Under the pieces are notes generated by a model that made no database searches, had not been told where the DNA came from, and was given only the letters and a program-made list of their open reading frames with translations. From a virus, in the IMG/VR virus record IMGVR_UViG_3300009285_003389, positions 1 to 28,121 of that record: DNA of 28,121 nucleotides; one strand, 5' to 3'. This document shows, one piece after another, positions 3,057-26,182 of the stretch (its first letter is position 1; the number at the start of each line of letters is the position of its first letter). Made by a program: the position numbers and the translations under genes.

Positions 3057-4625
3057 TTATTCACCCATCCCCTCTAAGGGGGCGAATTCAACTTGATATC
3101 CTTCAATCGCTGCAGGGAAGTTCGAGTACCATTCCGGCTCAATGGTTGTGCAAACTCGGTTGATATATGTGTCCAACGGCCGAACCCCTGAGCCTGGCCA
3201 CTTAAGACCGCTATTCCACTTTAGACCCGTGTTCCATTGGTAGCTTGCCCGCAAACCCAGCACGGCCCGCACTGGAGTCTGCTGCCCCTCGTCGATATTG
3301 CACTGAAACGTCACTTCCTGGCTTCCTGTCCGCTTTCTATAGATAGTCTTTACGTTGACTACCAGCTTTTCTATTCCGGGAAGGCCCAGATCATTTGGAG
3401 CCATCTTGATTCGCCAGCTATACGCTGTCCCCGAATCGCTGGTATATACTGTGCGATTGCCCTTGTATAGATATCCCGCGTAGCTACCAAACCAGTCCAG
3501 CTCTTCATTCGACACAGTGACATGCTGAACAAAGTTCATTGAGTGCTTTGGTGTGTCAAGCCATACATCCCCCGTGTCCCAGTCCCACACCAGAATCTTG
3601 TTATGCCCTGTTGTATTCCCAGCTCCAGAGCACAGCAGCCGAACTTGGTGATCCTTCTCCCGCACAAACGCCTGGCTATACTGCCACCGCCCCTGGTTCA
3701 AACCCAACCAAGTATTTACATCGTCCGAGTTGACTATCTCCACACTCATGTCTGGGCGAACAACGAACAGCCCCTCCCGCGCTGCCCCGAACACGAACTC
3801 TGGCCTGGCTACGATGCTCATCCGGCTAATCGGTCTAAACCCCCTACGTGGCTCTCCCAACCGAAAGTCGTAGTGCCCCAGCTGATCATAGCTAATCCCT
3901 CCCGGATACAGTCCGTCTTCCTTAAAGATCAGCGCCGCCCCCCAGTTGTCCACACAGCCCACGATTTTCGGCCCTCCATCGTATATCTCGTACCGATTGG
4001 CCGTTGGCCAGCTCGTGATATCCACCGTATACGTCGAGCGGTTGATGTCGCACCACCGAACACGTGTAGGGTAGTAGACTCCCGACTCTGTAGTCCCCAC
4101 GAAAATCAGCAGGTTCTTATGCGACATCATAGCCACGGCTTTAGAGAACTGAATCCCCGTAAGATCCGCGGCCACAGTTGGCGTTGTATCGTCTCCGTCC
4201 CACGTCTGTGGCGTATCCACCCCGTTGTTTATAACCAGCTTGTCCTTGAGCAGAACAAACTCGCAGAGATTATCTGCCGTGCCCGTCAAAGCATCCCCCG
4301 TGAGAGCAACCCTTGTCGTCCCGTCGTCCGAGTAGATCTTCGTTGGGGTTACCACAACTCTTTTTGTGCTACCGGCTGCAAAGGCCCCCTCCCATAAGCC
4401 AACTACAGCCTCACCTGCAGGGAGCTGCGTGGAGTTATACAGATCATACCCAGTCCGACTCTCTGCAGTCCCCCGCTCGCTAAGATTCACGTCCTGCAAT
4501 ATAGTGCAGTTCTCCGCGGTCAACCGCGGATGCGGATACCGCCAACGAGAGCGCTGCCCACCCACCCTAAACATCCGGCTGGTCTGAACACCAGGAGTGA
4601 CCCGCGTTACCGCTCCAGTAGTCAT
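3057..4625 (-). CDS. Putative tail hub / DNA-stabilisation-type protein (522 aa)
   Basis: The protein has a run of beta-rich segments with recurring Gly, Asp and Trp (for example QTWDGDD, VVVTPTKIYSDD, GLYPGG, LVWDWDTGDVW). This is compatible with a beta-propeller such as those of podovirus tail-hub and stabilisation proteins. The N-terminal part contains NLSERGTAESRTGYD, resembling the start of such proteins, where an R-x-G segment is common. It lies between an adaptor-like gene and the fibre gene, which fits a tail-hub role. The ATG has CGGAAG upstream and overlaps the previous stop codon by four bases. The family assignment is from general resemblance, so it is moderate at best. Confidence 0.55.
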   Translation of the reverse strand: MTTGAVTRVTPGVQTSRMFRVGGQRSRWRYPHPRLTAENCTILQDVNLSERGTAESRTGYDLYNSTQLPAGEAVVGLWEGAFAAGSTKRVVVTPTKIYSDDGTTRVALTGDALTGTADNLCEFVLLKDKLVINNGVDTPQTWDGDDTTPTVAADLTGIQFSKAVAMMSHKNLLIFVGTTESGVYYPTRVRWCDINRSTYTVDITSWPTANRYEIYDGGPKIVGCVDNWGAALIFKEDGLYPGGISYDQLGHYDFRLGEPRRGFRPISRMSIVARPEFVFGAAREGLFVVRPDMSVEIVNSDDVNTWLGLNQGRWQYSQAFVREKDHQVRLLCSGAGNTTGHNKILVWDWDTGDVWLDTPKHSMNFVQHVTVSNEELDWFGSYAGYLYKGNRTVYTSDSGTAYSWRIKMAPNDLGLPGIEKLVVNVKTIYRKRTGSQEVTFQCNIDEGQQTPVRAVLGLRASYQWNTGLKWNSGLKWPGSGVRPLDTYINRVCTTIEPEWYSNFPAAIEGYQVEFAPLEGMGE

Positions 4626-4858
4626 GTTACAGCTTCCGCAGCTCTACGCAGGATTACGGCTACAGCTTCTTGCGGTTCTTTTACGCACAAACCCTTCCAT
4701 TGAAGCGTGCTCCGCCCAGTCCAAGTAAACGTTCCGTTTCCGTTGTCGGACAGCTCTGGGATCACCAATATAGCCATCCTGCTTGTTTTTACTGACCCCG
4801 TCATTACAGCGGTTATAACCTCTGTACTCACGCTGCCAGACTCATTCTGCAAGGCCAT
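4622..4858 (-). CDS. Hypothetical protein (78 aa)
   Basis: A small protein with a Thr/Val-rich N-terminal part, a central FTWTGRSTLQW segment and an Ala-rich C-terminal helix. A strong AGGGGG lies ahead of the ATG. Its start overlaps the end of the 4842-5837 gene and its stop overlaps the next ATG (ATGA), so it is translationally embedded in the tail operon. No family is recognised. It may be a small tail or head-completion protein, by position only. Confidence 0.6.
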   Translation of the reverse strand: MALQNESGSVSTEVITAVMTGSVKTSRMAILVIPELSDNGNGTFTWTGRSTLQWKGLCVKEPQEAVAVILRRAAEAVT

Positions 4859-5837
4859 AGTCGACCCCCTTTATCAGCGGCCTGTGAGGACGATTGCGTA
4901 GGCCCGTGGCTGATTGAACATCTGCAAAAGAGTGCACGCCAGCAACGCTCTTATTCATCTCCCGCTTCAGTCTGGTCTCCATCTCTTTATACGTGGCCCT
5001 ATGTTGGTTGGCCACAGCAGCCATGCCTTGCTTCCCCAACAGATCCTGTGTAACCCCAAACACGAGCATCATATGAAACGCCTCGGGGAGCTCAGGCCAG
5101 TCTTCGTCATTCACCAACGGCGGGCGTCGCATCTCCGCACGAATGTTGTAGTTAATAGCCGCGGCAGGGATTGGATGAAACTCAATCCAGGCATATTCAG
5201 GGCTATCCCACCACGTTGGGATTGTAGCTAGTACATTGTCCGCGGCGTCAGAGACGGTAACGTTCCCTGTAAATGACTTACCCGTAGACGGAGCCTTCAC
5301 CAGTCGTTCGACACCAAGGGTCGAGTCATACGTGTTGCTCGTGGACACCTCAGAGGTTCCGTTCATGGTGACCAGCTCAGTCACCAGCACCCCGGACGAA
5401 TTGAATCCAGTAACCCGAACTTTGAAACTCGACCCTGCGTCCGCCGTGCTATCGCTGACCAAAGTCAGCACACAATCCGTGGACGGGTGCCGCTGAACGC
5501 CCCTCACGTTAAGGGGGTAGCAAAACAGCGGCGTACCGCTATCCGTGGTTCCTGGATAGCTTAGATCAAACAACCTCCTGTTCAGTACATACACGAATCG
5601 TGGCGTCGTTGGGTCTTCTACATTCAGCACCTCCTTGACATACAACGGCATTCCGTACTGGCTTGTGCTTGCCACGCTAGTCAGGGTGAACTCCCGAGGC
5701 TCATTTGGGACCTCAGCAGAGGACAGAACATACTGATACTTTTCGTTCACCAATACCTTGACGTGGTTCTCGAACTCTCCACCTGAGCCCTGGCCAGCGA
5801 AATGCAGAACCTCTTCAACGACTTCCGAGAAAGTCAT
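4842..5837 (-). CDS. Putative head-tail adaptor / tail structural protein (331 aa)
   Basis: The N-terminus (MTFSEVVEEVLHF) is a helix followed by a segment on chain termini (NEKYQYVLSSAEVP). The middle is beta-rich. The C-terminal part has LPEAFHMMLVFGVTQDLL followed by a charged helix (YKEMETRLKREM). This order resembles phage adaptor proteins that join the portal to the tail, where a P-E-x-x-H near a hydrophobic helix is frequent. AAGGAGAAG precedes the ATG, and the stop of the upstream gene lies only four bases before it. The role is inferred from organisation and general resemblance. Confidence 0.5.
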   Translation of the reverse strand: MTFSEVVEEVLHFAGQGSGGEFENHVKVLVNEKYQYVLSSAEVPNEPREFTLTSVASTSQYGMPLYVKEVLNVEDPTTPRFVYVLNRRLFDLSYPGTTDSGTPLFCYPLNVRGVQRHPSTDCVLTLVSDSTADAGSSFKVRVTGFNSSGVLVTELVTMNGTSEVSTSNTYDSTLGVERLVKAPSTGKSFTGNVTVSDAADNVLATIPTWWDSPEYAWIEFHPIPAAAINYNIRAEMRRPPLVNDEDWPELPEAFHMMLVFGVTQDLLGKQGMAAVANQHRATYKEMETRLKREMNKSVAGVHSFADVQSATGLRNRPHRPLIKGVDYGLAE

Positions 5838-5841: not shown

Positions 5842-6462
5842 TTACTTCTCCTTTGCTGCTCCCTTCAGGGCCTGATTCACTGCGTCTTGCGCCGTCGGAG
5901 ACAAGTTGCCCTGTGCTTGCATCTGGGCCGCTCCAAGCCGGAACATCTGGGCAAACGCGTCGTACATCTCTGTCTGGGACCGTTGACGCTTTTGGTCCTC
6001 AGAGCGCGCCAGAGACGTCCTTTCTTCCGGTCCGTTGGTCTTCAGAACCCTACGGATACGAAAGTCCCATTTCTGATACATCGGAACTGGAGTATCACTA
6101 ACTGATTGGTAGTCCGCGAGCTGCTCTTCAGTCATGGGAGGTAGACCGCGCACGATTCCTACAAGGCCAGATAGCGTCCCTACGATATCGATGATCAGCC
6201 CATCGTCCACGTTCACGGCCCGAGGCTCTCCGTCTATCCCGAGGACAGTGATCTTCGCAGGCTGTCCTTTACGCCCTGTGTCAACGACCACCTGCTCAAG
6301 CCATTCACCTGCCGGCTGCCAGTCCGCATGGACTGGATCGTTGCTGATGTACTTCGTGAGAACTATCCCACCAGAATCGTCTCCAAGAATCAGCGGAACT
6401 CCAGTGTTAAGATCCCGCTTTTCTACCGTGGCCTCACGCTTAAGATCGATAAAGACAGCCAT
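5842..6462 (-). CDS. Hypothetical virion-region protein (206 aa)
   Basis: The first half is mixed alpha/beta (VVVDTGRKGQPAKITVLG, LIIDIVGTLSGLVGIV). The second half is helical and rich in Gln, Arg and Ala (LARSEDQKRQRSQTEMYD, AAQMQAQGNLSPTAQDAV). No family is recognised. GGAAGGG precedes the ATG. It lies between two structural genes, so it is probably a structural or assembly protein. Confidence 0.6.
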   Translation of the reverse strand: MAVFIDLKREATVEKRDLNTGVPLILGDDSGGIVLTKYISNDPVHADWQPAGEWLEQVVVDTGRKGQPAKITVLGIDGEPRAVNVDDGLIIDIVGTLSGLVGIVRGLPPMTEEQLADYQSVSDTPVPMYQKWDFRIRRVLKTNGPEERTSLARSEDQKRQRSQTEMYDAFAQMFRLGAAQMQAQGNLSPTAQDAVNQALKGAAKEK

Positions 6463-6473: not shown

Positions 6474-6818
6474 CTATGCGTAATCCAGCGATACGTCCTG
6501 AGACGCCGCTGTGGAGCCAGTGGATGTGGTAGTCGAGGCGATAACTATTCCCAAGGAGAAGTAGAGCGGTCTATGCTGCCCGCGGTCAGTGACAGAACTA
6601 GCTAAGTTCCCGATCACGTACGTCGGGGCTGTGGCCCCCAGGGTGACATCCCCAGCTGCTGCTGCGTTGAATATCTGCACATAAGACACCGCAGCCACGT
6701 TGTTTATCACATTCCAGCCATACAGCAGTGCCTCCCCAGTTACTACCAGCAGAGGAGTATCAGCCAAGGCTGCTTGCTGGTATGGCAGCACGTATGGAAC
6801 GCCATAGTCAGATTTCAT
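6474..6818 (-). CDS. Small structural-type protein (114 aa)
   Basis: A beta-rich, Ala/Thr-rich protein with segments such as YVQIFNAAAAGDVTLGATAP and YFSLGIVIASTTTSTGS. Its composition is typical of small virion decoration or tail proteins. I chose the ATG at 6818 (MKSDYG), where AGGAAG lies eleven bases upstream within the palindromic repeat. A TTG three codons earlier would add three residues. It is the first tail-side gene after the glycosylation cassette. No precise family is recognised. Confidence 0.6.
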   Translation of the reverse strand: MKSDYGVPYVLPYQQAALADTPLLVVTGEALLYGWNVINNVAAVSYVQIFNAAAAGDVTLGATAPTYVIGNLASSVTDRGQHRPLYFSLGIVIASTTTSTGSTAASQDVSLDYA

Positions 6819-6827
6819 TTCCCCCAA

Positions 6828-6850
6828 CTTCCTACCAAGATGTTACGGAG
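6828..6850. repeat. 23-bp palindromic repeat, copy 2 (diverged arm)
   Basis: Plus-strand reading has left arm CTTCCTACCA, spacer AGA and right arm TGTTACGGAG. The left arm is the most degenerate of the set. On the minus strand it contains the TAA stop of the 6843-7763 gene and lies nine bases before the ATG at 6818. Confidence 0.85.
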
Positions 6851-7763
6851 TGTCAAATCCACACACCCTGAGTAGATCCTTCACTCTCTGCTCGTATGTA
6901 TGCCCCGCACGAACAAAAGCCTTCCCAGCTGCTGCAATCTTCTCTCTGCGCTCTATGTCAGTCAAAATCTCGCGGGCTTTCTCTACTGCCTCGTCTACCG
7001 TGTTCCAGCCCAGAAAGTGCACCCCCTCCTGAAAGCCAAGCTTATCCCACCCCACCATGTCAGCATTGCACAGCTGACACACCCCATAACTCATGACCTC
7101 AAAGAACCGCATGTTCAAGTCCTGACGAATACTCACGTTCAGCCCAACCCGTGCCTTGGCATAGCGAATTGCCGCTTGTTCGAAGAATACGTTGAACGCA
7201 AGCCAGGAGTTCGGAAACTCCTGGAACATTCGGTCCAAGAAAGCTACACGGTCATGACTCAACGGATCGTCTTTTACGCCTCGATTCAAGTACCCTACGA
7301 AAGCCAAATCCCACTCTCGTGTAAGATCCACCTTGTTACCCAGGTGTTTCGTTAGCTCCTCATAGCAAGGGTCAAGGTACGTATTACACGCTAGCGGAAG
7401 CCAGTCCACGCTCCCAATTCCGTCCCCAGCCATCCGCGCCACGTCTGGAAGCTGCGCTAGAAACACGTGATCAAAGCTTCGTGCCCACTCAAGCCGCTTG
7501 CTATACCCCAGATGCGTGTCGATCAACCAGCATGCGTTCGGCTTCGGCGGGAGCCATACAATATCGTCCCTGCCATCGTCAATAAACAGATTCAAGTCAT
7601 GCTCCGCGAAGTCATCTCCGGCCGGCCGGCTATATCGCTGGAACCCGCATTCCTTCATCCCTAGCCGGCACATAGCCTCTGTCACCCGGCGTGCGGTTCC
7701 GTTGTTCCGGATCTCTGCGTTGTAGAAGTTCCCAACGCTTGGCCAGCTCTTCTTACCGGTCAT
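6843..7763 (-). CDS. Glycosyltransferase, CgeB-like GT-B C-terminal type (306 aa)
   Basis: The C-terminal half carries the signature of the glycosyl transferases 1_2 / CgeB family: ARVGLNVSIRQDLNMRFFEV, then SYGVCQL at about residues 205-232 and a closing AGHTYEQRV segment. Members transfer a sugar from a nucleotide donor to an acceptor, and this region binds the donor. I chose the ATG at 7763 because AAGGAGCG lies just upstream and because it overlaps the stop of the previous gene by one base (TGATG). A start 15 codons earlier lacks this. It is one of five glycan genes in the late operon. The acceptor is unknown; a virion protein is an inference. Confidence 0.82.
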   Translation of the reverse strand: MTGKKSWPSVGNFYNAEIRNNGTARRVTEAMCRLGMKECGFQRYSRPAGDDFAEHDLNLFIDDGRDDIVWLPPKPNACWLIDTHLGYSKRLEWARSFDHVFLAQLPDVARMAGDGIGSVDWLPLACNTYLDPCYEELTKHLGNKVDLTREWDLAFVGYLNRGVKDDPLSHDRVAFLDRMFQEFPNSWLAFNVFFEQAAIRYAKARVGLNVSIRQDLNMRFFEVMSYGVCQLCNADMVGWDKLGFQEGVHFLGWNTVDEAVEKAREILTDIERREKIAAAGKAFVRAGHTYEQRVKDLLRVCGFDTP

Positions 7764-8932
7764 CAACCGCGCTCCTTCGGGTAGAAGCACAGAAAGTAGT
7801 AGTACCACGCCATCTTTGGGTGCCCAGTGTGCACAACTTCGTCGTTCATGCTAAAGCAGAGAACCCGACCAAAGTACCGTTCCAGAATCTCTAACAGCTC
7901 ATCGCGGTCGTAGCAGTGTACGTGAGACAGATAGCTTAGCTCACACTGGTACGGCTGCGAGTACACACTTGGACAGCCAAGTACTACCATTCCGTTATCT
8001 GCCACCACAAGCGACATTCTCTCAATTGCTTGCTTTCCCTGCTCTAGCGTCCAATGCTCAATCACATCCATTGCTACAACTGTGTCATAGCTGCCCAAAG
8101 GACCTTCGTGCACCAAAAAGTCCAGCTCCCGAAACTCCACGTTGTCTCGAGGACAGAACCGCGCAGCCTCAAGCACACAATCCAGCTGGACATCTACACC
8201 AACCACCTTCTGACAGAACTGCCCCATGAACACCGCCCCAATCCCATAGCCAGCTCCAATCTCAAGCACCCGATCTGTCTGCTTGAGCATCTTGGACACA
8301 AACTTATACCGCGCTAGCCGAATGGTGAGCATCAGTAGGTTGTCCGAGATGCACCTTGCGAATTCCGGCGGGAGCTGAGTATTCGGTACAGCGCTATAGA
8401 CGCTCTCAACAAGCTCCTTATATCCCACCGGATCTCGGTGGTAAGGACCAACGTCAAGGGATCGCTGCAGACTTGTGCTTGACAGCTTCTCTCCTGTAGT
8501 GATCACAAGACTTCCTCCATATTCTTCCAGTACTTTTCCCTCGCACTCCAGTAGAGCCGTCCTTGCTGGACCAGTAAGGGCATAGTCAGGCCCCTTGGAG
8601 TACAGCGCAGGCTGAAGAATCCGGAGGTTTTCTACCGGAGTCGCACAATGATCAATCACTACGTAGTCCACAATGCTGAGCGCTGCAAGGTTTAAAGCCC
8701 TGACATACTGATGGAACTTTGGGTGCCCATCTCCCTTTGCCAGAGCAACGTGCTTATCACAAGTCACTCCAACAACCAGCACGCTACCAAACTGCGCCGA
8801 CTGCTCAAGATGGCTAATATGCCCTGGGTGCAGCAAGTCCCACACTCCATGGCACATGACGACTTTCTCCCCCTCACACCTATCGCGGATTTCCTCTATC
8901 CCTAGAAGCTTCCTGCGATCAATCCTCTTCAT
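7763..8932 (-). CDS. Nucleotidyltransferase (HldE-C/RfaE type) fused to a SAM methyltransferase (389 aa)
   Basis: Two domains are visible. Residues about 20-160 match the cytidylyltransferase-like fold: GVWDLLHPGH at 29-38 holds the HxGH nucleotide-binding motif, followed by LVVGVTCD, KGPDY and a closing TTGEKLSSTSL, as in the adenylyltransferase half of heptose-activating HldE. Such enzymes join a sugar phosphate to a nucleotide. Residues about 200-360 are a class I methyltransferase: VLEIGAGYG (222-230) is motif I and MDVIEHW (288-294) follows. The fusion suggests one polypeptide that both activates and methylates a sugar or glycan. The start has GGAGGC upstream and overlaps the previous gene by 14 bases. 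Substrates are unknown. Confidence 0.85.
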   Translation of the reverse strand: MKRIDRRKLLGIEEIRDRCEGEKVVMCHGVWDLLHPGHISHLEQSAQFGSVLVVGVTCDKHVALAKGDGHPKFHQYVRALNLAALSIVDYVVIDHCATPVENLRILQPALYSKGPDYALTGPARTALLECEGKVLEEYGGSLVITTGEKLSSTSLQRSLDVGPYHRDPVGYKELVESVYSAVPNTQLPPEFARCISDNLLMLTIRLARYKFVSKMLKQTDRVLEIGAGYGIGAVFMGQFCQKVVGVDVQLDCVLEAARFCPRDNVEFRELDFLVHEGPLGSYDTVVAMDVIEHWTLEQGKQAIERMSLVVADNGMVVLGCPSVYSQPYQCELSYLSHVHCYDRDELLEILERYFGRVLCFSMNDEVVHTGHPKMAWYYYFLCFYPKERG

Positions 8933-10193
8933 CGCCAGCCTCCTTAACAGCCCTACACACAGTTGACCCCCACCCTATCGTACGGCACTCCATCACACGA
9001 AAGCCGCACCGCGAGATCAACCGCGGTAGGCTATTCGCTGTATATGCATGCACATGAGTACAGTCAAGTAAGATCGTGTTCATGCGCTCTTGGTCAGGTA
9101 CTGTAAGAAGAAGAGTCCCACCTGGTCGTAGCACTGCGTACCAGCGGTCTAGCGCAGCTATCGGGTCGACTAGGTGCTCCAGCAGATGCTGCGCCACAAG
9201 CACGTCCTGGCTTCCGTTCGCTACAAAGCCAAGCTCCGCCGCGTCTCCCACGACGTCTGGGGCAGCGGCGTCGAATTTCGTTCCCCCTGTTCCGCGTTCG
9301 CCCTTTGCGCTCTTGTCTACACCAACCAACCGCAGCCCAGGAGAGTCATACTTCGTGCTTCCGCAGCCCAGGTTGAAACCACTCCCACTAAGCTTGCTCA
9401 ATTGCCCCGACATCCAAGCCCCTTCATTCTCAGTATCGTGATTTTTCACTGTGCCCTGCGTGTAGCTCCATACAGGGTCAATCACCCGATACCAAGCATC
9501 CACTCCATGCTTCCTAATCAGAGCATTGTTTGTAGCTTCCTGCTGATCCTGGGAGTCCCACTGCTCACCAAACAGTCTCTTGCCTGTCTGCTGTCCAAAG
9601 TGGTGCAGATAGCAGTCCCTACGTAAGAGCAGCTGATACCCAGCCTTTACCAGCCGGATGCTCAAGTCTAGATCATCCCCGCCGGGCAAGTGACCATCTA
9701 GACCGCCCAGATCCTTCAAGACAGCAGTCCGCGTCATCAAACAGAACCCGATTAGCAGCCTTACATTCACGACCCCTGGCACAGTTAGGTTCATTAAACT
9801 TTGGCAGCCAGCCACAAAGTTGGAGCACGGGCCCACTGCGCCAACGGCTGGATCCTCTAAACCTTCCCACAGTAGTCGCCAGAACGTGTTGTGCCCAGGC
9901 AGAAACATCACGTCATCGTTCAACATGCAGAAGAGCTCAGTATCGCACTCTTCCAGCGCAGCATTAATCCCACCTATCCAGCCGACGTTCCGCTCCATGT
10001 GCCGTACCGTGAGCAGCTCTCCCACACTAGACCCTGAAACGTAGCCATCAAGCTGCGCCGAAGCCGGTGGATGGTTGTTCACCAACACAACACGGTATGG
10101 GAACTCCGTATACATGAACAGCGACCGAATGCACCAGTCCAGCTGTTGCATGTTGTTGAGCGTGGGGATAGCTATCGTAAGAATCGGCTTCAC
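8919..10193 (-). CDS. Family 2 glycosyltransferase fused to a SAM methyltransferase (424 aa)
   Basis: Residues 1-240 form a GT-A domain: TIAIPTLNN at the start, VVLVNNH, NVGWIGGINAAL, and the metal-binding LNDDV at 91-95, then GLDGHLPGGDDLDLSIRLV. This is the family 2 pattern. Residues about 268-400 are a methyltransferase of the Methyltransf_11 type: NLGCGS (274-279), LVAQHLLEH (332-340) and LRPGGTLLLTVPD. The GTG start overlaps the upstream stop (GTGA) and has GGGAGG before it. The enzyme probably adds a sugar and then methylates it, or caps a chain. The donor, acceptor and methyl position cannot be read from sequence. Confidence 0.85.
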   Translation of the reverse strand: MKPILTIAIPTLNNMQQLDWCIRSLFMYTEFPYRVVLVNNHPPASAQLDGYVSGSSVGELLTVRHMERNVGWIGGINAALEECDTELFCMLNDDVMFLPGHNTFWRLLWEGLEDPAVGAVGPCSNFVAGCQSLMNLTVPGVVNVRLLIGFCLMTRTAVLKDLGGLDGHLPGGDDLDLSIRLVKAGYQLLLRRDCYLHHFGQQTGKRLFGEQWDSQDQQEATNNALIRKHGVDAWYRVIDPVWSYTQGTVKNHDTENEGAWMSGQLSKLSGSGFNLGCGSTKYDSPGLRLVGVDKSAKGERGTGGTKFDAAAPDVVGDAAELGFVANGSQDVLVAQHLLEHLVDPIAALDRWYAVLRPGGTLLLTVPDQERMNTILLDCTHVHAYTANSLPRLISRCGFRVMECRTIGWGSTVCRAVKEAGDEED

Positions 10194-11101
10194 TTAGCCA
10201 GCCTCCCACTCCCAGTAACTGGATAGATCACCCCGTCGTCGCCCCGCTGGACCTCGCTAACCCCCGCGCCAAACAGATCCGCATAGGTCTGTCTGGCTGC
10301 CAAACGCTCCGGCCAGTAAGTCTCCTCACATGCCCAGCGGGCGGTATGCTCCTTGTGCATGGTCTTCACGCATGTGTCAACGTAGCGTGGAATGCCATGC
10401 TTGCTCAGCCGATGGCAGAAGAACCAGTCTTCCCCGCACCCTGTGCTGTTGAACCATGGCTTTGGAAGCTCCCGAAACACACGCATGTCGAACAGCACCA
10501 TCCCTGCACCAAACGCCAGCGGTCCACCAACCACAGCATCATCCAGCAACGCATCGCGTGGATAGTCCAGTACAATGTCGCTTCCGTCGATCACGTCGAA
10601 CCCCTGAGGATCCCGGTGGGTCCGCATACGGTAGATCACTGGATGTATCGGGTGTCTAGCCGTGAACGCCAACGCCGCACAGACAAGCTTCTGTCTACGC
10701 CACAGCTGCATAAATCCACTCACGGGGAACAGCATATCCGAGTCCCATGCAAGTAACCAATCTGCCCCCCACTCCTGTGCGCCCTCGACGACCATCTCCC
10801 TCGCCCGACCAACCATAGATAGCCGACTACGGTTTATCATCCCAATATCGAGAACTCCCAGCTTCTCGTAGTCCTCCGCTGTGGGCTCGGCCAGCCCCAT
10901 TGGGTCAATGAACCCCTCGGATAGAGGCGGCAAGCTGTCTTCAAGCAGCTCAAAGCCCACCACGTCCCCTTGAGCTTGCATCCGCTGCCTAAACAGCGTC
11001 CTTTGCCGCAGCGCCCCCAGATAGCCGAAGAAGTTCTGATAATACGGCGCCGTGTTGTCGTCAGGCCCTGCATACCAGTGCCCACTAATTGCCAACTTCA
11101 T
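10190..11101 (-). CDS. GT-A type glycosyltransferase (303 aa)
   Basis: The segment EWGADWLLAWDSDMLFP (residues 110-126) holds a DSD metal/nucleotide-sugar motif in the context typical of GT-A glycosyltransferases found in phages. The upstream NRSRLSMVGRAREMVVEGA is the helix that usually precedes it. A later GCGEDWFFCHRLSKHG resembles the catalytic GxDxxF region. The ATG (MKLAISGHWY) has GGGGGAGGA five bases upstream. The gene follows repeat copy 3 and overlaps the next gene by four bases. It is part of the same glycan cassette. Donor and acceptor are not identifiable. Confidence 0.75.
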   Translation of the reverse strand: MKLAISGHWYAGPDDNTAPYYQNFFGYLGALRQRTLFRQRMQAQGDVVGFELLEDSLPPLSEGFIDPMGLAEPTAEDYEKLGVLDIGMINRSRLSMVGRAREMVVEGAQEWGADWLLAWDSDMLFPVSGFMQLWRRQKLVCAALAFTARHPIHPVIYRMRTHRDPQGFDVIDGSDIVLDYPRDALLDDAVVGGPLAFGAGMVLFDMRVFRELPKPWFNSTGCGEDWFFCHRLSKHGIPRYVDTCVKTMHKEHTARWACEETYWPERLAARQTYADLFGAGVSEVQRGDDGVIYPVTGSGRLAK

Positions 11102-11116
11102 GCTATCCTCCCCCTG

Positions 11117-11139
11117 CTCCGTAACATTATGGTACAGAG
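11117..11139. repeat. 23-bp palindromic repeat, copy 3
   Basis: Plus-strand reading has left arm CTCCGTAACA, spacer TTA and right arm TGGTACAGAG. On the minus strand it holds the TAA stop of the 11127-11984 gene and lies 15 bases before the ATG at 11101. Confidence 0.9.
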
Positions 11140-11984
11140 TTTGTTGGAAACCACCTGGGAACAACCCGCTCCAGCTCCGCCGCCAAACTATCCCAGCTCC
11201 ACCCATACAGCAACATCGCGTTGTTTGCATCGTGCCCACCAGAGAGAACGTACCGGTGGTAGGACGCCAGCCCATACTTTCTAATAAGCTGGTTCCGCCC
11301 AAGCTCTCCCCAGGCCAGAATCTTAGCCGCAAGATCCGTCTCAACCTTGCTCATTGTAGCCGCTGGGTCATGGTGCACATAAGCCCGACGGTCTACCACA
11401 ATCTTGTATCCGGCTCGCCGAAGTCTAAGACACAGGTCTGAGTCAATGGCGTGCCACAGCCTTGGGTCCCAGCCTCCCACTTCGTCCAGTACATCCTTGC
11501 GAGCAAGAACAGCACTACCATGAACATGATTAGCCACAAAGCGCTCAGGCAGATCAACACGATGAAGCTGTTGCCCCTCATAGAGTTCATTAGAGCACGG
11601 AGCGACAAGACCAACCTCCTTGTACCATGCAGTTTCCACCAAATAGTCCCAAAACCTGCTGCTGCTCGGGGCAAAAGCCATATCGTCTTGCATGAACGCC
11701 ACAAAAGCTGTCCCAACAACATTGAGCAGCTCCTGCAGTGGGTATCGATTTTCTGCCGCCATGCGCGGGCCGAACAAGTTGTAACCGCAACCAAGAACCC
11801 GTCCTCTCTCCCCAAGCCAGTGGCTGCACAACCCACGCACGCGCTGCTGCTTCTCCACGTCTTCGTTGTTGTCCCACAACAGAACAAAGCCGTCAAAACC
11901 ACTGTATCGGACTAGCGTTCCAAGAAACCGCGCCAGCAAGTCACAGTTATCATACGTCATAAGACAGACTGTGACTGCCTTCAT
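11127..11984 (-). CDS. Family 2 glycosyltransferase (285 aa)
   Basis: The N-terminal MKAVTVCLMTYDNCDLLARF, the WDNNED segment and AFMQDDMAF (metal motif QDD at 99-101) are those of a family 2 GT-A enzyme. VGGWDPRLWHAIDSDLCLRLRR gives the usual acceptor-side motif. The ATG at 11984 has AGAAGGG upstream and overlaps the previous stop (ATGA). An in-frame start 14 codons upstream is less likely. The stop codon lies inside palindromic repeat copy 3. It is the first glycosyltransferase of the cassette in transcription order. Confidence 0.82.
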   Translation of the reverse strand: MKAVTVCLMTYDNCDLLARFLGTLVRYSGFDGFVLLWDNNEDVEKQQRVRGLCSHWLGERGRVLGCGYNLFGPRMAAENRYPLQELLNVVGTAFVAFMQDDMAFAPSSSRFWDYLVETAWYKEVGLVAPCSNELYEGQQLHRVDLPERFVANHVHGSAVLARKDVLDEVGGWDPRLWHAIDSDLCLRLRRAGYKIVVDRRAYVHHDPAATMSKVETDLAAKILAWGELGRNQLIRKYGLASYHRYVLSGGHDANNAMLLYGWSWDSLAAELERVVPRWFPTNSVP

Positions 11985-12280
11985 TCTCTGCCCTTCTGGG
12001 ACCACAGCACCATCCGCTCTCGCCATGTAAGCCGGTCAAGTAGCCCCAGCTTCATCTTTACAAAGTTCCACAGGCTGCTTTCCAGACACGGCCGGCAGAG
12101 ATGGCCAGCATGGAGTTTCTTGATCCTCTGTGGTGCGTTAATCCACATAACCCGCCCGCACTGACAACGCACCAAAAACCGCTTTCTATCCTCCGCATGA
12201 TGCGGCTCCAGCCAGTGTAGCCACCATGGCCACCGCTTAATCGGAGTGCACGGAGCTGGATTGTACTCACTCGCTTCCAT
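11981..12280 (-). CDS. Small zinc-ribbon-like protein (99 aa)
   Basis: Four cysteines are arranged as C39-x-C41 and C62-x2-C65, with the segments RCQCGRVMW and HLCRPCLES. This suggests a zinc-binding ribbon. The N-terminal part is rich in Trp and His. The ATG follows repeat copy 4 by eleven bases, with AGAGAAGGGG as ribosome-binding region. It opens the glycan cassette, after the three hairpins. Function unknown; a small zinc-binding accessory or regulatory protein is possible. Confidence 0.65.
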   Translation of the reverse strand: MEASEYNPAPCTPIKRWPWWLHWLEPHHAEDRKRFLVRCQCGRVMWINAPQRIKKLHAGHLCRPCLESSLWNFVKMKLGLLDRLTWRERMVLWSQKGRE

Positions 12281-12391: not shown

Positions 12392-12415
12392 ATCAGGCGC
12401 CTACAGCGCCCTGAT
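12392..12415. terminator. Hairpin 3, overlapping the stop codon of the decoration gene
   Basis: ATCAGGCGC pairs with GCGCCCTGAT with one bulged base and a five-base loop. Part of it is the last codons and stop of the 12401-12895 gene. With hairpins 1 and 2 it makes a compact structured 3' end for the head-gene message. Confidence 0.45.
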
Positions 12416-12895
12416 AAAGCAATGGTTCGCCCAGTTCGCTCCAACAGTGCCCAAGCTATGCAGTGTAGCCGTCACCGTATCCAAGGCAACGATCGGCCCG
12501 TAGATGTCATGGGCTCCCGTCGAGCTCATGCCAATGCTAGCCGACGCATCCCCAGGACCGACCGCTCCACCACAGATCACAGTAACCGACCCCACGATCC
12601 GCATGACGAGCCAGCTCTCGTGGTACCCGTACACCTGGGCAACACCAGTCTCGCCTGCAGCAACGTCCTCGTAGGCCAGACCTACAAATGTAGCCTCTCG
12701 TCCAGCCAGCAAAGCGCCAGCAATCCCAGTGCCTCCACCAGCCGTGCCGTACTCATTCGTTGACACACTCGCAGCGTTCACGTGCATGCTCATCTTGTGC
12801 ACCGCATAGTGCACCGTGAGACTAGCTGCCTGGCCGTTCGTCACGTTGATCCAGACACGCTCCGTGTCGCTCTTGTTTACCGTCTGCATCCACAT
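12401..12895 (-). CDS. Putative capsid decoration / head structural protein (164 aa)
   Basis: A Gly/Ala/Val/Thr-rich beta-type protein with WINVTNGQAASLTVHYAV and a long repeated small-residue middle part. This composition and the position two genes after the major capsid gene suggest a head decoration or cement protein. AGGAG lies eight bases ahead of the ATG. Its stop codon is built into hairpin 3. No family can be named with confidence. Confidence 0.55.
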   Translation of the reverse strand: MWMQTVNKSDTERVWINVTNGQAASLTVHYAVHKMSMHVNAASVSTNEYGTAGGGTGIAGALLAGREATFVGLAYEDVAAGETGVAQVYGYHESWLVMRIVGSVTVICGGAVGPGDASASIGMSSTGAHDIYGPIVALDTVTATLHSLGTVGANWANHCFIRAL

Positions 12896-12906: not shown

Positions 12907-13188
12907 CTATATATACGTTGCCCTGAATCGGTAGGTATCCACCGATTGGTGGTTTCCCATCACCGCCGCCGTGCCGTTCACCGCAGTCCCCGAAGCATCC
13001 ACGTTCAGTTGCACCTGTGCCGACCCCACGCCGTCCTCATCAACGACCATGCAGTCGATCAATGTGCCCCCCGTGCCAGTCAGTGCAAACGCTCGCTTGG
13101 TATCATCCACTTCGATAACCCCAGTAAGCACCCACACATTCCCGTCCTGCTTCGGGTAACCATCAAGCGTCATGTCTCCTGCAGCCAT
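12907..13188 (-). CDS. Small head-region protein (93 aa)
   Basis: A beta-rich protein (VWVLTGVIEVDDTKRAFALTG, QVQLNVDASGTAVNGTAAV) of a size and composition common among small head proteins encoded next to the major capsid gene. GAAAGGGA precedes the ATG. It lies directly between the capsid gene and the 164-residue decoration-type gene. No family recognised. Confidence 0.6.
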   Translation of the reverse strand: MAAGDMTLDGYPKQDGNVWVLTGVIEVDDTKRAFALTGTGGTLIDCMVVDEDGVGSAQVQLNVDASGTAVNGTAAVMGNHQSVDTYRFRATYI

Positions 13189-13200: not shown

Positions 13201-14181
13201 CTAAGTCAGACCAGTGAGCTTGCCCAGGGCCGCTCTCAGGTTGCATGCCATGTTCCCCTGCCAGATGATTGGGGCCACGAACGCATCCTGGTTGATCGGC
13301 TGCTGCTTTCCTGCAGGAAGCATGTTCATATCTGCGTCACGATGCACGAACATGAACAAGTGGTTCGAGTTCAGCACATACATAACGCCAGACTGGCACT
13401 TCGCCTCCCACAGAATCTTCGCGTTGCGGTACTTGGGCTTCGTGGACAGATCTGCCTCAGCGCCCCCAACATACCGCACAGCTGGAAGGGTTAGTGCCTC
13501 CAGAACCTCAGCGACCGTCTGCGTTGTAACCAGCGCGTCCGGCTCACCTTCCACGCTCGAAACCTCGGTGCAGTCGTTGTAGACCGTCCGCAGCGCAGGC
13601 AGAAGATTCGTTGCAGCGGCACCAACGCTTGCGCTGACTTGGTTCCGCCACTTCGTATTCACCGCTGTGTCAATCGCCGCATAAGTCCCAGACGTGATGG
13701 TCGTGGCGATCATAGCAAGCAGACCAGTGATCTGCCGACTTCCATCAGCAGTGCCATCACTGTACGCGTCCGTCGCCAGGTTGTCGCCCATTTCAGACTC
13801 AGCCTGCTGGATCTTCGTCTTCCACAGATCCCGAACTTGATTCTCCCCTTGGTTGTTCCGGCTATCCAGCCCCGAAATCACCGCTGCAGCCCCCGCCTGC
13901 TTCCAGTCGAAGAACACGTTGGTAATTCCATCGTAGCCAGTGACATTCAGAGGCTCGAGACCAGTGTACCGCCTGAAGTTTCCAGATCCCGCATACACCA
14001 AAGGCAGCTTGATTCGCTCCCCCGAAGTGATCCTTCGAATCCGCTTCCCCTCGTGCATCCACTTCCAGAACGGGCTCCTTTTGAACGCCTGGGTTCGGAA
14101 CATACCCGAGTCCAGGTAGTTCATCAGCGTGGTGGCCAGTACAGGCCCCCAAGTAAGAGTCGGATTTCCTTCCCCAACCAT
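13201..14181 (-). CDS. Major capsid protein (326 aa)
   Basis: The protein fits a phage major capsid protein in length and layout. It opens with a helical N-terminal arm, then RRITSGERIKLPLVYAGSG and YTGLEPLNVTGYDGITNVFF, a long helix region (RDLWKTKIQQAESEMGDNLA) and a beta-rich C-terminal part (VMYVLNSNHLFMFVHRDADM). The gene follows the scaffold-like gene and precedes small decoration-type genes, the usual order. CGGAGATATGGGATA precedes the ATG. It builds the icosahedral shell. I cannot tell which sub-family of the HK97 fold it belongs to. Confidence 0.82.
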   Translation of the reverse strand: MVGEGNPTLTWGPVLATTLMNYLDSGMFRTQAFKRSPFWKWMHEGKRIRRITSGERIKLPLVYAGSGNFRRYTGLEPLNVTGYDGITNVFFDWKQAGAAAVISGLDSRNNQGENQVRDLWKTKIQQAESEMGDNLATDAYSDGTADGSRQITGLLAMIATTITSGTYAAIDTAVNTKWRNQVSASVGAAATNLLPALRTVYNDCTEVSSVEGEPDALVTTQTVAEVLEALTLPAVRYVGGAEADLSTKPKYRNAKILWEAKCQSGVMYVLNSNHLFMFVHRDADMNMLPAGKQQPINQDAFVAPIIWQGNMACNLRAALGKLTGLT

Positions 14182-18787: not shown

Positions 18788-20437
18788 CTATTCCGCTGGG
18801 AACTCTGCCACCCCAATGTCCGGAACCATCATTGCCCCCCTTGGTACTCGCTGGCCAAGCCGCCTCCGACGATTCATGTCCACCAGGTCGCTGAATGTAT
18901 AAACCCGTGGAGTGATCTTTGGCTGCTCCGGCCGAGGGATCATCCGTCCCTTACCCTGCATAGAATCCAGCTTGATCCCGAAGAGCGCTAGCATGTCTAC
19001 CTGGTCGTCGTATTTCCCGCCGGGGAACTTACTTAGCTCATGGCATAGATCCCCAAGCCACGGTGCATTAAACGGTGCGTGGACGTAACCCAGCTGCATA
19101 GCACCAGCTATCGCACCCGCGCGGTCTGGGCTGTCCTTCCTGCCGCGCCCAATGACGGACACGTCCTCAACCAACGTCCACGCCTTCCGCTCTTTCCGGC
19201 GCTTGTCCAGCAGTGGCCGATAGACCCTTGCCATGCTGGTCTTTTCTAGGTAGAATTTTCGCGCCCGCCACTGAAGCATCAGCTCAATCGCCCGTTCAAC
19301 TCCTGCCTCTATCTCGCACTGCTCCCGCCAGATGTCCAGCAGCCACAAATGCCCCTCCGGACAGACACCGGCCACTCCCAAGACAGAAAAGTCCCCTTCC
19401 CCAGAAGATAGGGCAAAGTCTGAAGAGATATACAGAGTCAGCCTCTTCGGTAGCTCGCCAAGGCCAAAAAGTCGCAGCCAACTTGGCTTGAACATGTCCC
19501 CGTCGTCGCTGACCGGCTTCTGCTGATGTAGGGCCATGAACAGCCGTGCGGATCTAGACCTTAAGCTGGCCAGCTCTTCCATGCTGCGGCGGTTTGGTCC
19601 AGAGGGTAGAAGAACCTCCCCCGGCGCGCGCCCTAACATGTCTCCTGGCTCGGCAATCGACGGCAGCGAGACGATGTCCCACTGCTCCTCGCCCGTGGAG
19701 TTAAGTTTCTCTACCCTCCCACCAATGTCGTCGTCATGCCAGCGCTGCAAGATCAAGACTACCGAGCCCACTCCATCACGGTAGCTCCGCAGTCTATTGA
19801 GCAGGACTCCCGCAAACCAGTTCCACACCAGCTCTCTATGCTCCGGCGAGCTGGCCTGCTCCCAGTTCTTTATTGGATCGTCGATTACAGCGACGTGTGC
19901 GTGGAAGCCGATAAGTCCACCGCCGACTCCTTCGGCTTTATATTCTCCCCCTGACGTGAGCTTCCACTCATCCATCGCCGTGGCGTCAGGGGAGAGTTGA
20001 GCGTCAGGGAACAGTAGCTGAAAGCTTGGATGCTTGATTAGGTTACGAACGTTGCGACCGAATCCACGGGCGAGGTCATGGTCGTAGCTGGCCTGGATGA
20101 ACTCAAGCCGCGGGTTCCGGCCAAGAAACCAAGCGGGAAATAACTCCGAAGCTAGGCGAGATTTTCCCGAAGCTGGGGGGACAAAAATCGCCAGCCGTCT
20201 AATCCGCCCGGCTTCTATGTCTTCCAGCTTCCGGGAGATAAGTCTATGTACGGGGTATGGCTCATACAGCGGGTCGACGAACTGAGCAAAGTCGATTAGA
20301 TTCTCCCGCGCGCGCTCGCGGTGAAGCAGCGTGGAGATGAGATCTGCAGCGGATTCAGGTGGGAGCCCGCTAGCAGTTGCCTCTTCAGCCCCCACAAGCA
20401 ATCCAGCCAGCTCGTCCGCGCGCCCCAGAGCATTCAT
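18788..20437 (-). CDS. terL: Terminase large subunit (549 aa)
   Basis: It is the packaging motor and head-filling nuclease. The ATPase domain has a Walker A-like VPPASGKS (86-93) and Walker B VAVIDD (182-187). The C-terminal RNase H-like nuclease has ISSDFALS with D340, FYLEKTS with E399 and GKYDDQVDML with aspartates at 477, 478 and 481. All match the family. The ATG overlaps the small-terminase stop (ATGA), and the stop codon lies just before repeat copy 6. Length is within the usual range. Confidence 0.95.
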   Translation of the reverse strand: MNALGRADELAGLLVGAEEATASGLPPESAADLISTLLHRERARENLIDFAQFVDPLYEPYPVHRLISRKLEDIEAGRIRRLAIFVPPASGKSRLASELFPAWFLGRNPRLEFIQASYDHDLARGFGRNVRNLIKHPSFQLLFPDAQLSPDATAMDEWKLTSGGEYKAEGVGGGLIGFHAHVAVIDDPIKNWEQASSPEHRELVWNWFAGVLLNRLRSYRDGVGSVVLILQRWHDDDIGGRVEKLNSTGEEQWDIVSLPSIAEPGDMLGRAPGEVLLPSGPNRRSMEELASLRSRSARLFMALHQQKPVSDDGDMFKPSWLRLFGLGELPKRLTLYISSDFALSSGEGDFSVLGVAGVCPEGHLWLLDIWREQCEIEAGVERAIELMLQWRARKFYLEKTSMARVYRPLLDKRRKERKAWTLVEDVSVIGRGRKDSPDRAGAIAGAMQLGYVHAPFNAPWLGDLCHELSKFPGGKYDDQVDMLALFGIKLDSMQGKGRMIPRPEQPKITPRVYTFSDLVDMNRRRRLGQRVPRGAMMVPDIGVAEFPAE

Positions 20438-21283: not shown

Positions 21284-21712
21284 TCAACCTGCGCGCTCCG
21301 CGCTCCCTTTGGCCAGCCGGTGCAGCAACCGCAGCAGCCCAGCCAGCACTGCCGTTCCTGCCGCAGCTCGCAGCGTCTCAAGGCTTAGCGGAGTCTGGCC
21401 GATGGCCTCAATCACGCCCGCGGCAATCCCAGCCACAAACGGGACAATGACGTGCCGGGCCACGCTATATACATCTTCCCTATCTAGCTGCCCTCTTTTA
21501 CTCACTGCCGTCTCTCCACCTTGTTGTATCCGTCCTGCCCTCTGACTCTCTGACTCTCTGACTCTCTGACTCTCTGACTCTCTGACTCTCTGACTCTCTG
21601 ACTCTGGCCCGCGCAGTATGCGGATCAACGCCAACCGGGCGCCGAACCCTCCAGAAGCTAGATACTCCAGGGCGGCCCCTATCTCTCTATCTCTCTGCCC
21701 TCTTTTACTCAC
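21284..21712 (-). CDS. Octamer-array fusion frame, C-terminus holin-like (142 aa)
   Basis: A GTG at 21712 with AAGGTGGAGAGG upstream opens a frame whose product has three parts. Residues 1-38 begin MSKRGQRDRE. Then follows an eight-residue repeat (ESESQRVR) encoded by the octamer array. The last 73 residues begin VSKRGQLDRED and could be translated alone from an internal GTG at 21505 that has the same upstream sequence. That part has one or two hydrophobic helices (IVPFVAGIAAGVIEAIG, AAAGTAVLAGLLRLL) like a small holin. The two starts arise from a local duplication. A change in octamer number would split the frame into two proteins. Confidence 0.6.
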   Translation of the reverse strand: MSKRGQRDREIGAALEYLASGGFGARLALIRILRGPESESQRVRESESQRVRESESQRAGRIQQGGETAVSKRGQLDREDVYSVARHVIVPFVAGIAAGVIEAIGQTPLSLETLRAAAGTAVLAGLLRLLHRLAKGSAERAG

Positions 21713-22502: not shown

Positions 22503-22958
22503 ATGCAGAACTACCTGGTGTCGACGAACTCCGGTCTCGGCAAGGGCGCCGGCAAGGGCCTGACCGTGACCGTGAAAATGGACGGGGTCACGCCCGACCA
22601 AGTCGAGGCCCTGGCCCGGTGCGAGGTGAACAGGACGTTCGCGGACCTGTTCCGGAGGGCGAAGGAAGATCTGGAGAACCGGAAGGCCGGCCGGGCACAG
22701 AAGTACGGACTCGCCGCTCTTTGGGAGACGATCCTTAAGGAGCGGAAGTACTCCTTCTCCGTCGCCACGCATCTGGCGCGGGCGAGAGGGGCGGTCACCG
22801 AAGGGGTGGCCCTGGCACTGCTGGCAGACGGTGGGATGACAGACGAAGAGATTCTCGAGGCCATCCGGGCCAGAAGGCAGAAGCCGGACGAGGAAGAGGA
22901 AGAGGAAGAGGAAGAGGAAGAAGAGGAAGAAGAGGAAGAAGAGGAAGAAGAGAAGTAG
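22503..22958 (+). CDS. Hypothetical protein with a C-terminal poly-glutamate tail (151 aa)
   Basis: AGGAGGCGG lies just before the ATG. The first 125 residues are a mixed helical protein (GVTPDQVEALARCEV, FADLFRRAKEDLENRKAG, MTDEEILEAIRARR). The last 25 or so are one unbroken glutamate tract encoded by GAGGAA/GAGGAAGAA repeats, ending in Lys. Such acidic tails can imitate DNA or bind basic proteins, but here nothing tells which. No family recognised. The frame on the opposite strand is only a serine mirror of the repeat. Confidence 0.75.
   Translation: MQNYLVSTNSGLGKGAGKGLTVTVKMDGVTPDQVEALARCEVNRTFADLFRRAKEDLENRKAGRAQKYGLAALWETILKERKYSFSVATHLARARGAVTEGVALALLADGGMTDEEILEAIRARRQKPDEEEEEEEEEEEEEEEEEEEEEK
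22888..22954 (+). repeat. GAA/GAG microsatellite coding for poly-Glu
   Basis: First (GAGGAA) units, then (GAGGAAGAA) units, all in frame, at the 3' end of the 22503-22958 gene. Codons alternate between GAG and GAA rather than being a single triplet. Length changes by whole units would keep the frame. Confidence 0.9.
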
Positions 22959-24515: not shown

Positions 24516-25439
24516 ATGCCATACAAGGTACTTACCCATGATTACCGTCCGCCCATACAGGGCGGAGATCCAATCTGGGACGGCGCGCCTGGCGCTCTCC
24601 TACCCGTAGTGCCACTGGACACGACGAAGAACGCGTGTGGCACACACGGGGGCTGGCACTACTGTGCCACCATAGAGGATGCCCTGGATATCGCTGGGCT
24701 CTGGCCCGATGGGTGGCCGTCTGTGGTTGCGGAGGTCAGCCCAGAAGGCCCTGTGATCTGGAGTGGTTCCAAGTACCGAACCAGCTCGCTACGCTTGGTC
24801 CGTGTTGTGCCTGAAGAGGAAGTCCAAGAGGGAGTCTACAGACTCTCGGCACCATTCGGCCCGTACCAAGATGATATGACCGCTGAGCAGATGCAATGGA
24901 GAGGAGCACTGAGTCGTCCGTTGCACGACCCGGAAGCCGTGGACCTACACCTCCATGTGGCCCTTGATGCCCGGGGACTACCGTGGATACTACAGCAGTT
25001 TGACACAAGGCGGGCTGTGTGGGATGCGCGCATTGCGTGGAATGCACAGAGTGCGGATGCTGCGTGGCATGCACGGGCTGCGTGGTCTAAGGGGACTACG
25101 TGGAATGAGGGGACTGCGTGGGTTGGCGTGCCATGGTCCACACGGGCTATGTGGGCTCCGCAGGCTACACAAGCTATGTGGGAAACGCGGAATGTGCGGG
25201 CTGCGTGGCAGATGCGGGATGTGAGGTATATGTGGGCTGTGGGGGATGCGTCTGATGCGCTCTTGGTGCAATACGCCGTCCGTCAAGGATGGTTCTCCGC
25301 CGACCCACAACTGCTCACTCTTGGGATACAAGATGCCTACGCTGCTGGTCTATGCAGCGCCGGCCCCACAGGACCTAGTACCCTTGGCTGGGCGATGGTC
25401 CCCATAGAGGAGACCAACGAGAGCCCGCTCGCTGGGTAG
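24516..25439 (+). CDS. Ala/Trp triplet-repeat protein with DUF7666-like N-terminal domain, paralog 1 (307 aa)
   Basis: Residues 1-150 are a domain beginning MPYKVLTHDYRPPIQGGDP, with WHYCATIEDALDIAGLWPDG and VVAEVSPEGPV. The G-x-H-x-C, dAL and eV-x-G order resembles the DUF7666-type domain; this is a tentative recollection. Residues about 165-248 are a low-complexity region where Trp recurs at spacings mostly of 6 and 9 residues, as in WDARIAWNAQ and WHARAAWSKG. The C-terminal VQYAVRQGWFSADPQLLTLG is shared with paralog 2. GAGGAGG precedes the ATG. Function unknown. Confidence 0.8.
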   Translation: MPYKVLTHDYRPPIQGGDPIWDGAPGALLPVVPLDTTKNACGTHGGWHYCATIEDALDIAGLWPDGWPSVVAEVSPEGPVIWSGSKYRTSSLRLVRVVPEEEVQEGVYRLSAPFGPYQDDMTAEQMQWRGALSRPLHDPEAVDLHLHVALDARGLPWILQQFDTRRAVWDARIAWNAQSADAAWHARAAWSKGTTWNEGTAWVGVPWSTRAMWAPQATQAMWETRNVRAAWQMRDVRYMWAVGDASDALLVQYAVRQGWFSADPQLLTLGIQDAYAAGLCSAGPTGPSTLGWAMVPIEETNESPLAG

Positions 25440-25482: not shown

Positions 25483-25713
25483 ATGCACAAGCAAGTCCAG
25501 CTGGCCTACTCTCACTCCACAGGGTCATGCTATCTCTACGTGACCCCCGAGGGGGTCGAATGCCGTGGTGTAGCTTCAGACCCAGATACGGGGAAGTACT
25601 TAGCCACTCCCGGCATCCACGTAACCTGGGAGGAACTGCTCCATCTGCGTGGCCTAGTATCGTCAACTCCGTACCAAGATGTTACAGAGCCGGCCAGAGA
25701 AGGGAAGGAATAA
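25483..25713 (+). CDS. Hypothetical protein ending in a repeat-encoded tail (76 aa)
   Basis: The ATG follows AAAGGATATACA. The protein has a beta-type pattern (QLAYSHSTGSCYLYVTPEGV, GVASDPDTGKYLATPGIHV) and ends with TPYQDVTEPAREGKE, where YQDVTEP is read from palindromic repeat copy 11. It lies immediately upstream of the LuxR-type gene. No family recognised. The same YQDVTEP ending appears in the small terminase, because both genes run through the repeat in the same frame. Confidence 0.65.
   Translation: MHKQVQLAYSHSTGSCYLYVTPEGVECRGVASDPDTGKYLATPGIHVTWEELLHLRGLVSSTPYQDVTEPAREGKE
25667..25689. repeat. 23-bp palindromic repeat, copy 11
   Basis: Left arm CTCCGTACCA, spacer AGA, right arm TGTTACAGAG. 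It lies inside the 3' end of the 25483 gene and 28 bases before the ATG of the LuxR-type gene at 25718. Confidence 0.9.
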
Positions 25714-25717
25714 CCCA

Positions 25718-25978
25718 ATGGAACAAACCATTCCAGTCCCTCCACGGCTTCCAACCCCACGTACCCTAATTACCCGGCTAACCCATAGGGAGATTCAAGT
25801 AACCGCCCTACTGGCAGCAGGGTACACACAAAAGGAGGTTGCGGACAAGCTCGAAATCTCGTTCCGTACGGTGACGACACACCGCCACCATATAGGGACA
25901 AAAACAGGACTGCAGCTCAACACGGACCTTACCAGGCTGGCTATCGGTGCTGGTCTATTAATTGAGGAGGTCAGCTAG
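25718..25978 (+). CDS. Stand-alone LuxR/GerE-type HTH DNA-binding protein (86 aa)
   Basis: The GerE hallmark is clear: LTHREIQVTALLAAGYTQKE (residues 21-40), then VADKLEISFRTVTTHRHHIG and a K-T-G at about 61-64. It contains only the helix-turn-helix domain plus a short proline-rich N-terminus, without receiver or ligand domain. Such domains bind DNA as dimers on palindromes. The ATG at 25718 has GGAAGGA upstream; an ATG at 25679 in the same frame lies within the repeat and is less likely. The nearby repeat copy 11 makes self-regulation plausible. Confidence 0.88.
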   Translation: MEQTIPVPPRLPTPRTLITRLTHREIQVTALLAAGYTQKEVADKLEISFRTVTTHRHHIGTKTGLQLNTDLTRLAIGAGLLIEEVS

Positions 25979-26181: not shown

Positions 26182-26182
26182 A

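Follow-up and report, generated by a model that had tools for sequence, protein, structure and literature searches.

A candidate virion glycosylation cassette in the late operon of an uncultured phage lineage

Few phages are reported to have sugar-coated particles, and phage glycosyltransferases are usually interpreted, in the available parts of genome papers, as modifiers of DNA or of the host wall. Here, we describe a cassette of five genes located between the capsid and tail genes of IMG/VR virus record IMGVR_UViG_3300009285_003389. The whole record (28,121 bases, possibly only part of a phage genome) is referred to as the window. The five genes probably constitute a virion glycosylation cassette (we put the probability at about 0.68), hard-wired into the late operon and made together with the particle, with a virion protein as the inferred acceptor.

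Virion glycosylation of phage Che8 was reportedly described by Freeman et al. in 2023. In the accessible parts of two papers, the Che8 capsid is reported to be glycosylated (PMC11256854, PMC12363180). Che8 gp108, a GT2 enzyme with a Methyltransf_24 domain, and gp109 and gp110 (GT25-like) are encoded with 4-base overlaps, and are similar to the window cassette in being tandem, overlapping phage glycosyltransferase genes with a GT2-methyltransferase fusion. A197 of the archaeal virus STIV is named as the suspected or likely capsid glycosyltransferase in the consulted portions of two sources, and is essential according to a review (PMC4187194, PMC10551542). It is virus-encoded, like the window enzyme GTb, of which it is the best fold match, but is a lone glycosyltransferase of an unrelated virus with 15% identity to GTb. 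Gp41 of Cellulophaga phage phi18:1 is a glycosyltransferase located in the structural module and kept through a genus, as described in the accessible part of one paper (PMC11946311). It resembles the cassette by description, not by sequence, and is a single gene. The Gtr serotype-conversion cassettes of temperate phages, which encode the membrane flippase GtrA and are positioned among integration genes, are likewise small phage glycosyltransferase clusters. In contrast, neither GtrA (PF04138) nor a tyrosine integrase was found in any of ten relatives of the window phage, the records of which are possibly incomplete; these models were not run on the window. These results argue against serotype conversion.

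Organization of the cassette and fold of its core enzyme

The cassette spans positions 11984 to 6843 on the minus strand and is formed by five intact leftward genes, which overlap or nearly overlap:

11127..11984, minus strand: GTa, accessory glycosyltransferase of GT2 type, paralogous to the GT2 domain and an extra of the window phage (profile match)
10190..11101, minus strand: GTb, core GT-A glycosyltransferase, candidate protein-attaching enzyme (22-member alignment A5, predicted model)
8919..10193, minus strand: GT2-MT, core fusion of a GT2 glycosyltransferase with a class I methyltransferase (PF00535, PF13489)
7763..8932, minus strand: CT-MT, accessory fusion of a cytidylyltransferase/HldE-adenylyltransferase-like domain with a methyltransferase, in the slot between GT2 and GTB (PF01467, Methyltransf_25)
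6843..7763, minus strand: GTB, core GT-B glycosyltransferase, Glyco_trans_1_2 (PF13524, 18-member alignment A6)

An earlier note, made from the sequence alone, had described four glycosyltransferase genes and a nucleotidyltransferase-methyltransferase gene running leftward between capsid and tail genes. Pfam, profile and model evidence bear this out, and the coordinates 6843-11984 are correct. The description of all the genes as overlapping holds for most junctions: g99, the small gene upstream, shares an ATGA overlap with GTa, GTb a GTGA overlap with GT2-MT, GT2-MT 14 bases with CT-MT, and CT-MT a TGATG overlap with GTB, but GTa and GTb are separated by 25 bases. The note had overlooked g99 and the methyltransferase domain encoded by the GT2 gene. 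Core junctions with 4-base overlaps are found in many related loci.

The domains of GT2-MT match PF00535 (E 3e-10, 40.6 bits against a curated cut-off of 23.3) and Methyltransf_23 (E 2e-10), those of CT-MT match PF01467 (CTP_transf_like; E 2e-6, 28.7 bits against a cut-off of 21) and Methyltransf_25 (E 2e-9), and GTB matches PF13524 (E 7e-20, 71.9 bits against a curated cut-off of 25). The best full-domain resemblance of the CT domain is to the HldE adenylyltransferase TIGR02199, with 94.6 bits, under the 181.5-bit cut-off. GTa reaches Pfam only below the cut-off (8e-5); against the alignment of the core GT2 family (A7) its profile match is 99.7%, and it has 31% and 25% identity to the extra GT2 genes of relatives L095 and L100. 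The starts of GTb and GTB were set at 11101, where relatives begin to align, and 7763, in place of the listed TTG at 11344 and GTG at 7808, which are too early.

GTb has no match in Pfam. Its predicted model has a GT-A fold (pLDDT 88), and its D-x-D and G-E-D columns are invariant. The best structural match of the model is STIV A197 (Z 16.6, root-mean-square deviation 2.7 over 174 residues), and further matches are LH3 (Z 15.9), COLGALT1 (13.9), Mimivirus R699 (13.6) and Mnn9 (13.2), among which LH3 and COLGALT1 are protein-glycosylating enzymes. The predicted fold and the analogy to Che8 favour protein glycosylation.

Conservation of the cassette in the capsid-tail interval

Relatives were collected by scans with alignments of two cassette genes, queried regardless of gene position, which yielded 33 loci for GTB and 96 for GTb; the best 80 of the latter were taken (49 at identities of at least 34%, 31 at 22-32%). 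In all 33 GTB relatives, and in 49 of the 49 GTb relatives at 34% or above, the gene lies among this operon's capsid-side and/or tail-side genes. The union of the two sets comprises 54 distinct IMG/VR contigs by hand count (one contig contributes two loci, L035 with GTB alone and L048 with the major capsid protein to GT2), which are not 54 independent events, because several are near-identical copies. The earlier note had proposed a synteny search and named relatives with the cassette among host-takeover genes as evidence against a virion role; in the 54 contigs the GTb or GTB relative is always in the capsid-tail interval and never with early genes, which in near-full-length relatives are on the opposite strand.

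The leftward operon of the window has the order terminase, portal, FmdB-type zinc ribbon, scaffold, major capsid protein (MCP), g93, g164, g99, cassette, g117, g206, g331, g522 and g902, including the following genes:

18788-20437, minus strand: terminase, terL (PHROGs)
13201..14181, minus strand: MCP (phrog_9953 major head protein, PHROGs E 2e-48; relatives)
12907..13188, minus strand: g93, small protein adjoining the capsid gene, which may be a decoration protein or an acceptor (alignment A13)
12401..12895, minus strand: g164, small protein of virion type, which may be a decoration protein or an acceptor (alignment A9)
11981..12280, minus strand: g99, small protein in which the conserved CxC and HxGH are a putative metal site (alignment A8)
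6474..6827, minus strand: g117, small protein between the cassette and tail genes (relatives at 37-46% in the same position)
5842..6462, minus strand: g206, conserved gene closing the interval (relatives in synteny)
4842..5837, minus strand: g331, conserved tail-type protein (synteny, relatives at 31-58%)
3057..4625, minus strand: g522, virion structural protein (phrog_3287, E 5e-18)

PHROGs recognises terL, MCP and g522, and gave no match for g331; the other operon genes, such as portal and tail genes, were named by homology, synteny and position. The lineage is uncultured and, judged from its gene content, appears podovirus-like. The usual order in relatives is MCP, g93, g164, g99, GTb, GT2 with or without the methyltransferase, GTB, a protein of about 105 residues, g206 and g331. 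At the g117 position many relatives have this different protein of about 105 residues. L002, the first relative seen with the same order, has three of the five cassette genes at 52-62% identity. The order is kept over a wide divergence, with MCP identities to the window down to about 30%. A chance arrangement was rejected, as the order is identical in dozens of divergent contigs.

The core g99-GTb-GT2(+/-MT)-GTB is fixed, and GTa and CT-MT are extras of the window phage. The distance from GT2 to GTB, measurable in 35 of 39 loci, is -24 to 63 bases in 30 of them. The remaining five contain inserts: CT-MT in the window, a second GT2 in L095 and L100, an epimerase and GT2 fragments with a broken frame in L104, and a Methyltransf_24 gene with a 302-residue open reading frame (ORF) in L106. 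An epimerase also occupies the slot of L014, which is cut off before GTB, and L034 has a Methyltransf_24-like gene, just under the cut-off, between GTb and GT2. Of 33 complete GT2 genes, 26 include the methyltransferase part and 7 lack it. Thus, the transferases are fixed and the tailoring genes vary. PF01467 was absent from all ten relatives searched, which makes the CT domain an extra of the window phage. In L104 (5275-6657), several dozen residues are inserted in frame into GTb, and downstream of it the epimerase-like frame is broken.

Inheritance was compared by correlations of pairwise protein distances, not trees (n 16-25). Distances of GTb and GTB correlate with those of MCP (r 0.81 and 0.85), as do those of g331 (0.89) and g522 (0.82), and correlations with the portal are 0.89 for GTb, 0.80 for GT2 and 0.95 for GTB. 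Every correlation is at the smallest p reachable with 500 permutations. GTb and GTB therefore behave like virion genes. Origin as a moron or by recent insertion was rejected for the core, and is possible for GTa and CT-MT.

The capsid-side view covered 34 MCP relatives. Core genes are present in 12, four end before the interval (L003, L047, L051, L054), and L004, L059, L061, L062 and L063 have other genes there; L060, which shares the coordinates of L059, was counted among the 34 and left out of closer inspection. Behind the g93/g164-like genes of L004, L059, L061 and L063 lies a gene for a GT-A-like enzyme of 330-354 residues, and zinc-ribbon-like ORFs adjoin these genes. A Methyltransf_24 gene is present as well in L061 and L063, and a similar one, judged by its neighbours, in L004. 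The four-sequence alignment of the enzyme identifies it as a remote relative of GTb (profile probability 92.4% over 58 columns); the comparison of GTb with the single L063 sequence was not significant. In three Manatee Spring phages, a GTb relative lies directly behind MCP and a gene of about 100 residues (profile match 98.9%, tested for L012).

Single-sequence scans of viral_contigs with GT2-MT, CT-MT and GTa detected no relatives; cassette genes were reached by alignment queries only. In tblastn searches of isolate phages, GTB and the L063 enzyme had no match, GTb matched four records and GTa had one short match, GT2-MT reached methyltransferase parts only (four cyanophage records) and CT-MT its CT domain only (26 records). 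PDB sequence profile searches with GTb, GTB, g164 and MCP gave nothing useful. L138, a 3.2-kb contig binned as Bacteroidales with core genes and a GTB at 61%, is likely misbinned phage DNA and was not used as host evidence. Cellular glycosyltransferases probably account for the other 21 GTB loci in genome_contigs (26-35%), the contexts of which were checked with phage queries only.

Possible acceptors and alternative targets

In the favoured reading, GTb, of a type retained even where the other transferases are missing, would act first, in the cytoplasm, by attaching a sugar to a newly synthesised virion protein (MCP, g93, g164 or a tail protein). GT2 and GTB would then extend the chain, and the methyltransferase domain would O-methylate it. 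In the window phage, CT-MT probably supplies one more sugar or sugar-like unit, activated by a nucleotide and possibly methylated, for which GTa would be the transferase. The earlier suggestion that the phage builds its own activated sugar holds for these extras only; no sugar-nucleotide gene is part of the conserved core, which must draw on donors supplied by the host. The GTb-like genes behind capsid-side genes in the L004/L059/L061/L063 and Manatee Spring groups count in favour of a virion acceptor. They also speak against the quite improbable restriction of glycosylation to tail or receptor-binding proteins, for adsorption, and not the capsid, which would suit the equal closeness of the cassette to tail and capsid genes and the protein of about 105 residues that follows GTB in many relatives.

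DNA glycosylation as a protection from host nucleases, a role established for some phage glycosyltransferases, is very improbable. Genes for DNA modification and repair (N6_N4_Mtase, UDG) do occur in relatives, but the cassette is in the late virion operon, and three different transferases with methyltransferases better fit an oligosaccharide. PF00303, a thymidylate-synthase-type family that includes hydroxymethylases, was found in none of the ten relatives, the records of which may be incomplete (the window and other routes were not searched); this, too, may argue against DNA glycosylation.

Several observations weigh against virion glycosylation. Neither fold nor synteny names a substrate, and a common fold is not proof of function. 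The 12 most distant MCP relatives (26-30%) match no other window protein, including those of the cassette, and no glycosyltransferase is annotated at this position in the isolate relatives Mx9, ppBjS10J-1, BUCT555 and Mwe-JY13 or in two uncultured records (the 6 inspected out of 12 records), so the cassette is not required for this capsid type generally. Among GTb relatives at 22-32%, six virion models recognised a virion neighbour in only 6 of 31, and the wider enzyme family thus also occurs in contexts that these models could not classify. Distances of the GT2 domain track MCP less well (r 0.59) and g331 at just 0.51; GT2 has probably recombined more than GTb and GTB, as its distances suggest. 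The Che8 cassette lies at the right genome end, outside the virion operon, whereas that of the window is inside, and the host of Che8 is Mycobacterium. In the four pairings tried of Che8 gp108-gp110, as single sequences, with the three core enzymes, hhalign probabilities were below 1%, and the resemblance is one of design, not demonstrable descent. In the accessible part of one study, ten other phages were stained and no glycoproteins were found (PMC12894461).

Similar marine-phage genes, the glycosyltransferases of pelagimyophages, are interpreted in the available part of another study as modifiers of host lipopolysaccharide (LPS) (PMC7029224). Enzymes of this kind would alter lipid-linked sugars or LPS late in infection, and block re-adsorption of progeny or superinfection. 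Late expression would suit progeny release, soluble glycosyltransferases are able to act on lipid-linked glycans, and HldE-like adenylyltransferases, which the CT domain partially matches through TIGR02199, belong to LPS-core synthesis. We nevertheless consider host-surface modification unlikely: the five cassette proteins have no strongly hydrophobic segment (highest 19-residue Kyte-Doolittle mean 1.68), GtrA was missing from the ten relatives, the cassette distances track those of capsid genes, and the best folds of GTb include protein-glycosylating enzymes. The preference of the earlier note for the virion over the host wall is thus supported in part, by synteny, GTb fold, the Che8 analogy and the lack of GtrA in the ten relatives, although soluble enzymes could still act at the host surface.

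If the virion is the target, the locus may, as a tentative extension, be an assembly line in the morphogenesis operon, in which GTb attaches the priming sugar to a protein of the capsid surface, the core assembles a methylated oligosaccharide, and the slot swaps CT-MT, a second GT2, an epimerase or a methyltransferase, so that sugar coats of related phages differ like bacterial O-antigens. The fixed arrangement within a head-tail operon with swappable extra enzymes looks new; in the literature on phage virion glycosylation and glycosyltransferases among structural genes no account of this lineage was found, most subscription papers being beyond reach. Three transferases that travel with capsid and tail genes over a large divergence, together with variable extras, suggest that virion glycosylation is a standing trait of the lineage. 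Virion glycosylation gives a direct prediction for mass spectrometry, and GTb is singled out as the first enzyme to assay.

Further features of the window and its relatives

Residues C39, C41, H57 and H60 of g99 are invariant in the 21 sequences of alignment A8. The gene is upstream of, and coupled to, the glycosyltransferase genes and usually precedes the core; its family is possibly a metal-binding partner of GTb. The gene of g93 is duplicated in L002 and L040. The predicted model of g164 is poor (pLDDT 57), and its profile matches the protein in the same position of L004, L059, L061 and L063 at 90.8%. A scan for terminator-like sites on the minus strand from 14181 to 6843 was negative, which is in keeping with the virion reading, and promoter and terminator scans gave no more matches than shuffled sequences.

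Outside the virion operon, a 99-residue LuxR-type (GerE) DNA-binding protein is encoded at 25679-25978 (plus strand). Two paralogues at 24516-25439 and 26006-27100 (plus strand) have a common N-terminal domain, weakly matching DUF7666 in the first, and long Trp/Ala/Asp-rich repeats, and a third, Ala/Trp-rich ORF is located at 27286-27948. An 8-base repeat of 8.2 perfect copies lies within an ORF at 21540-21605, where gain or loss of copies could alter the reading frame, and a GGAAGA-type repeat at 22886-22952 encodes a poly-Glu tail on the ORF 22503-22958. In relative L163 (13913-16261, minus strand), a 782-residue protein of the late operon, with a YkuD L,D-transpeptidase domain at its C terminus, is encoded between portal and scaffold-side genes. 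Late-strand genes for proteins of about 1,200-2,100 residues are located at the far genome end of relatives (L169-L171, L175-L177).

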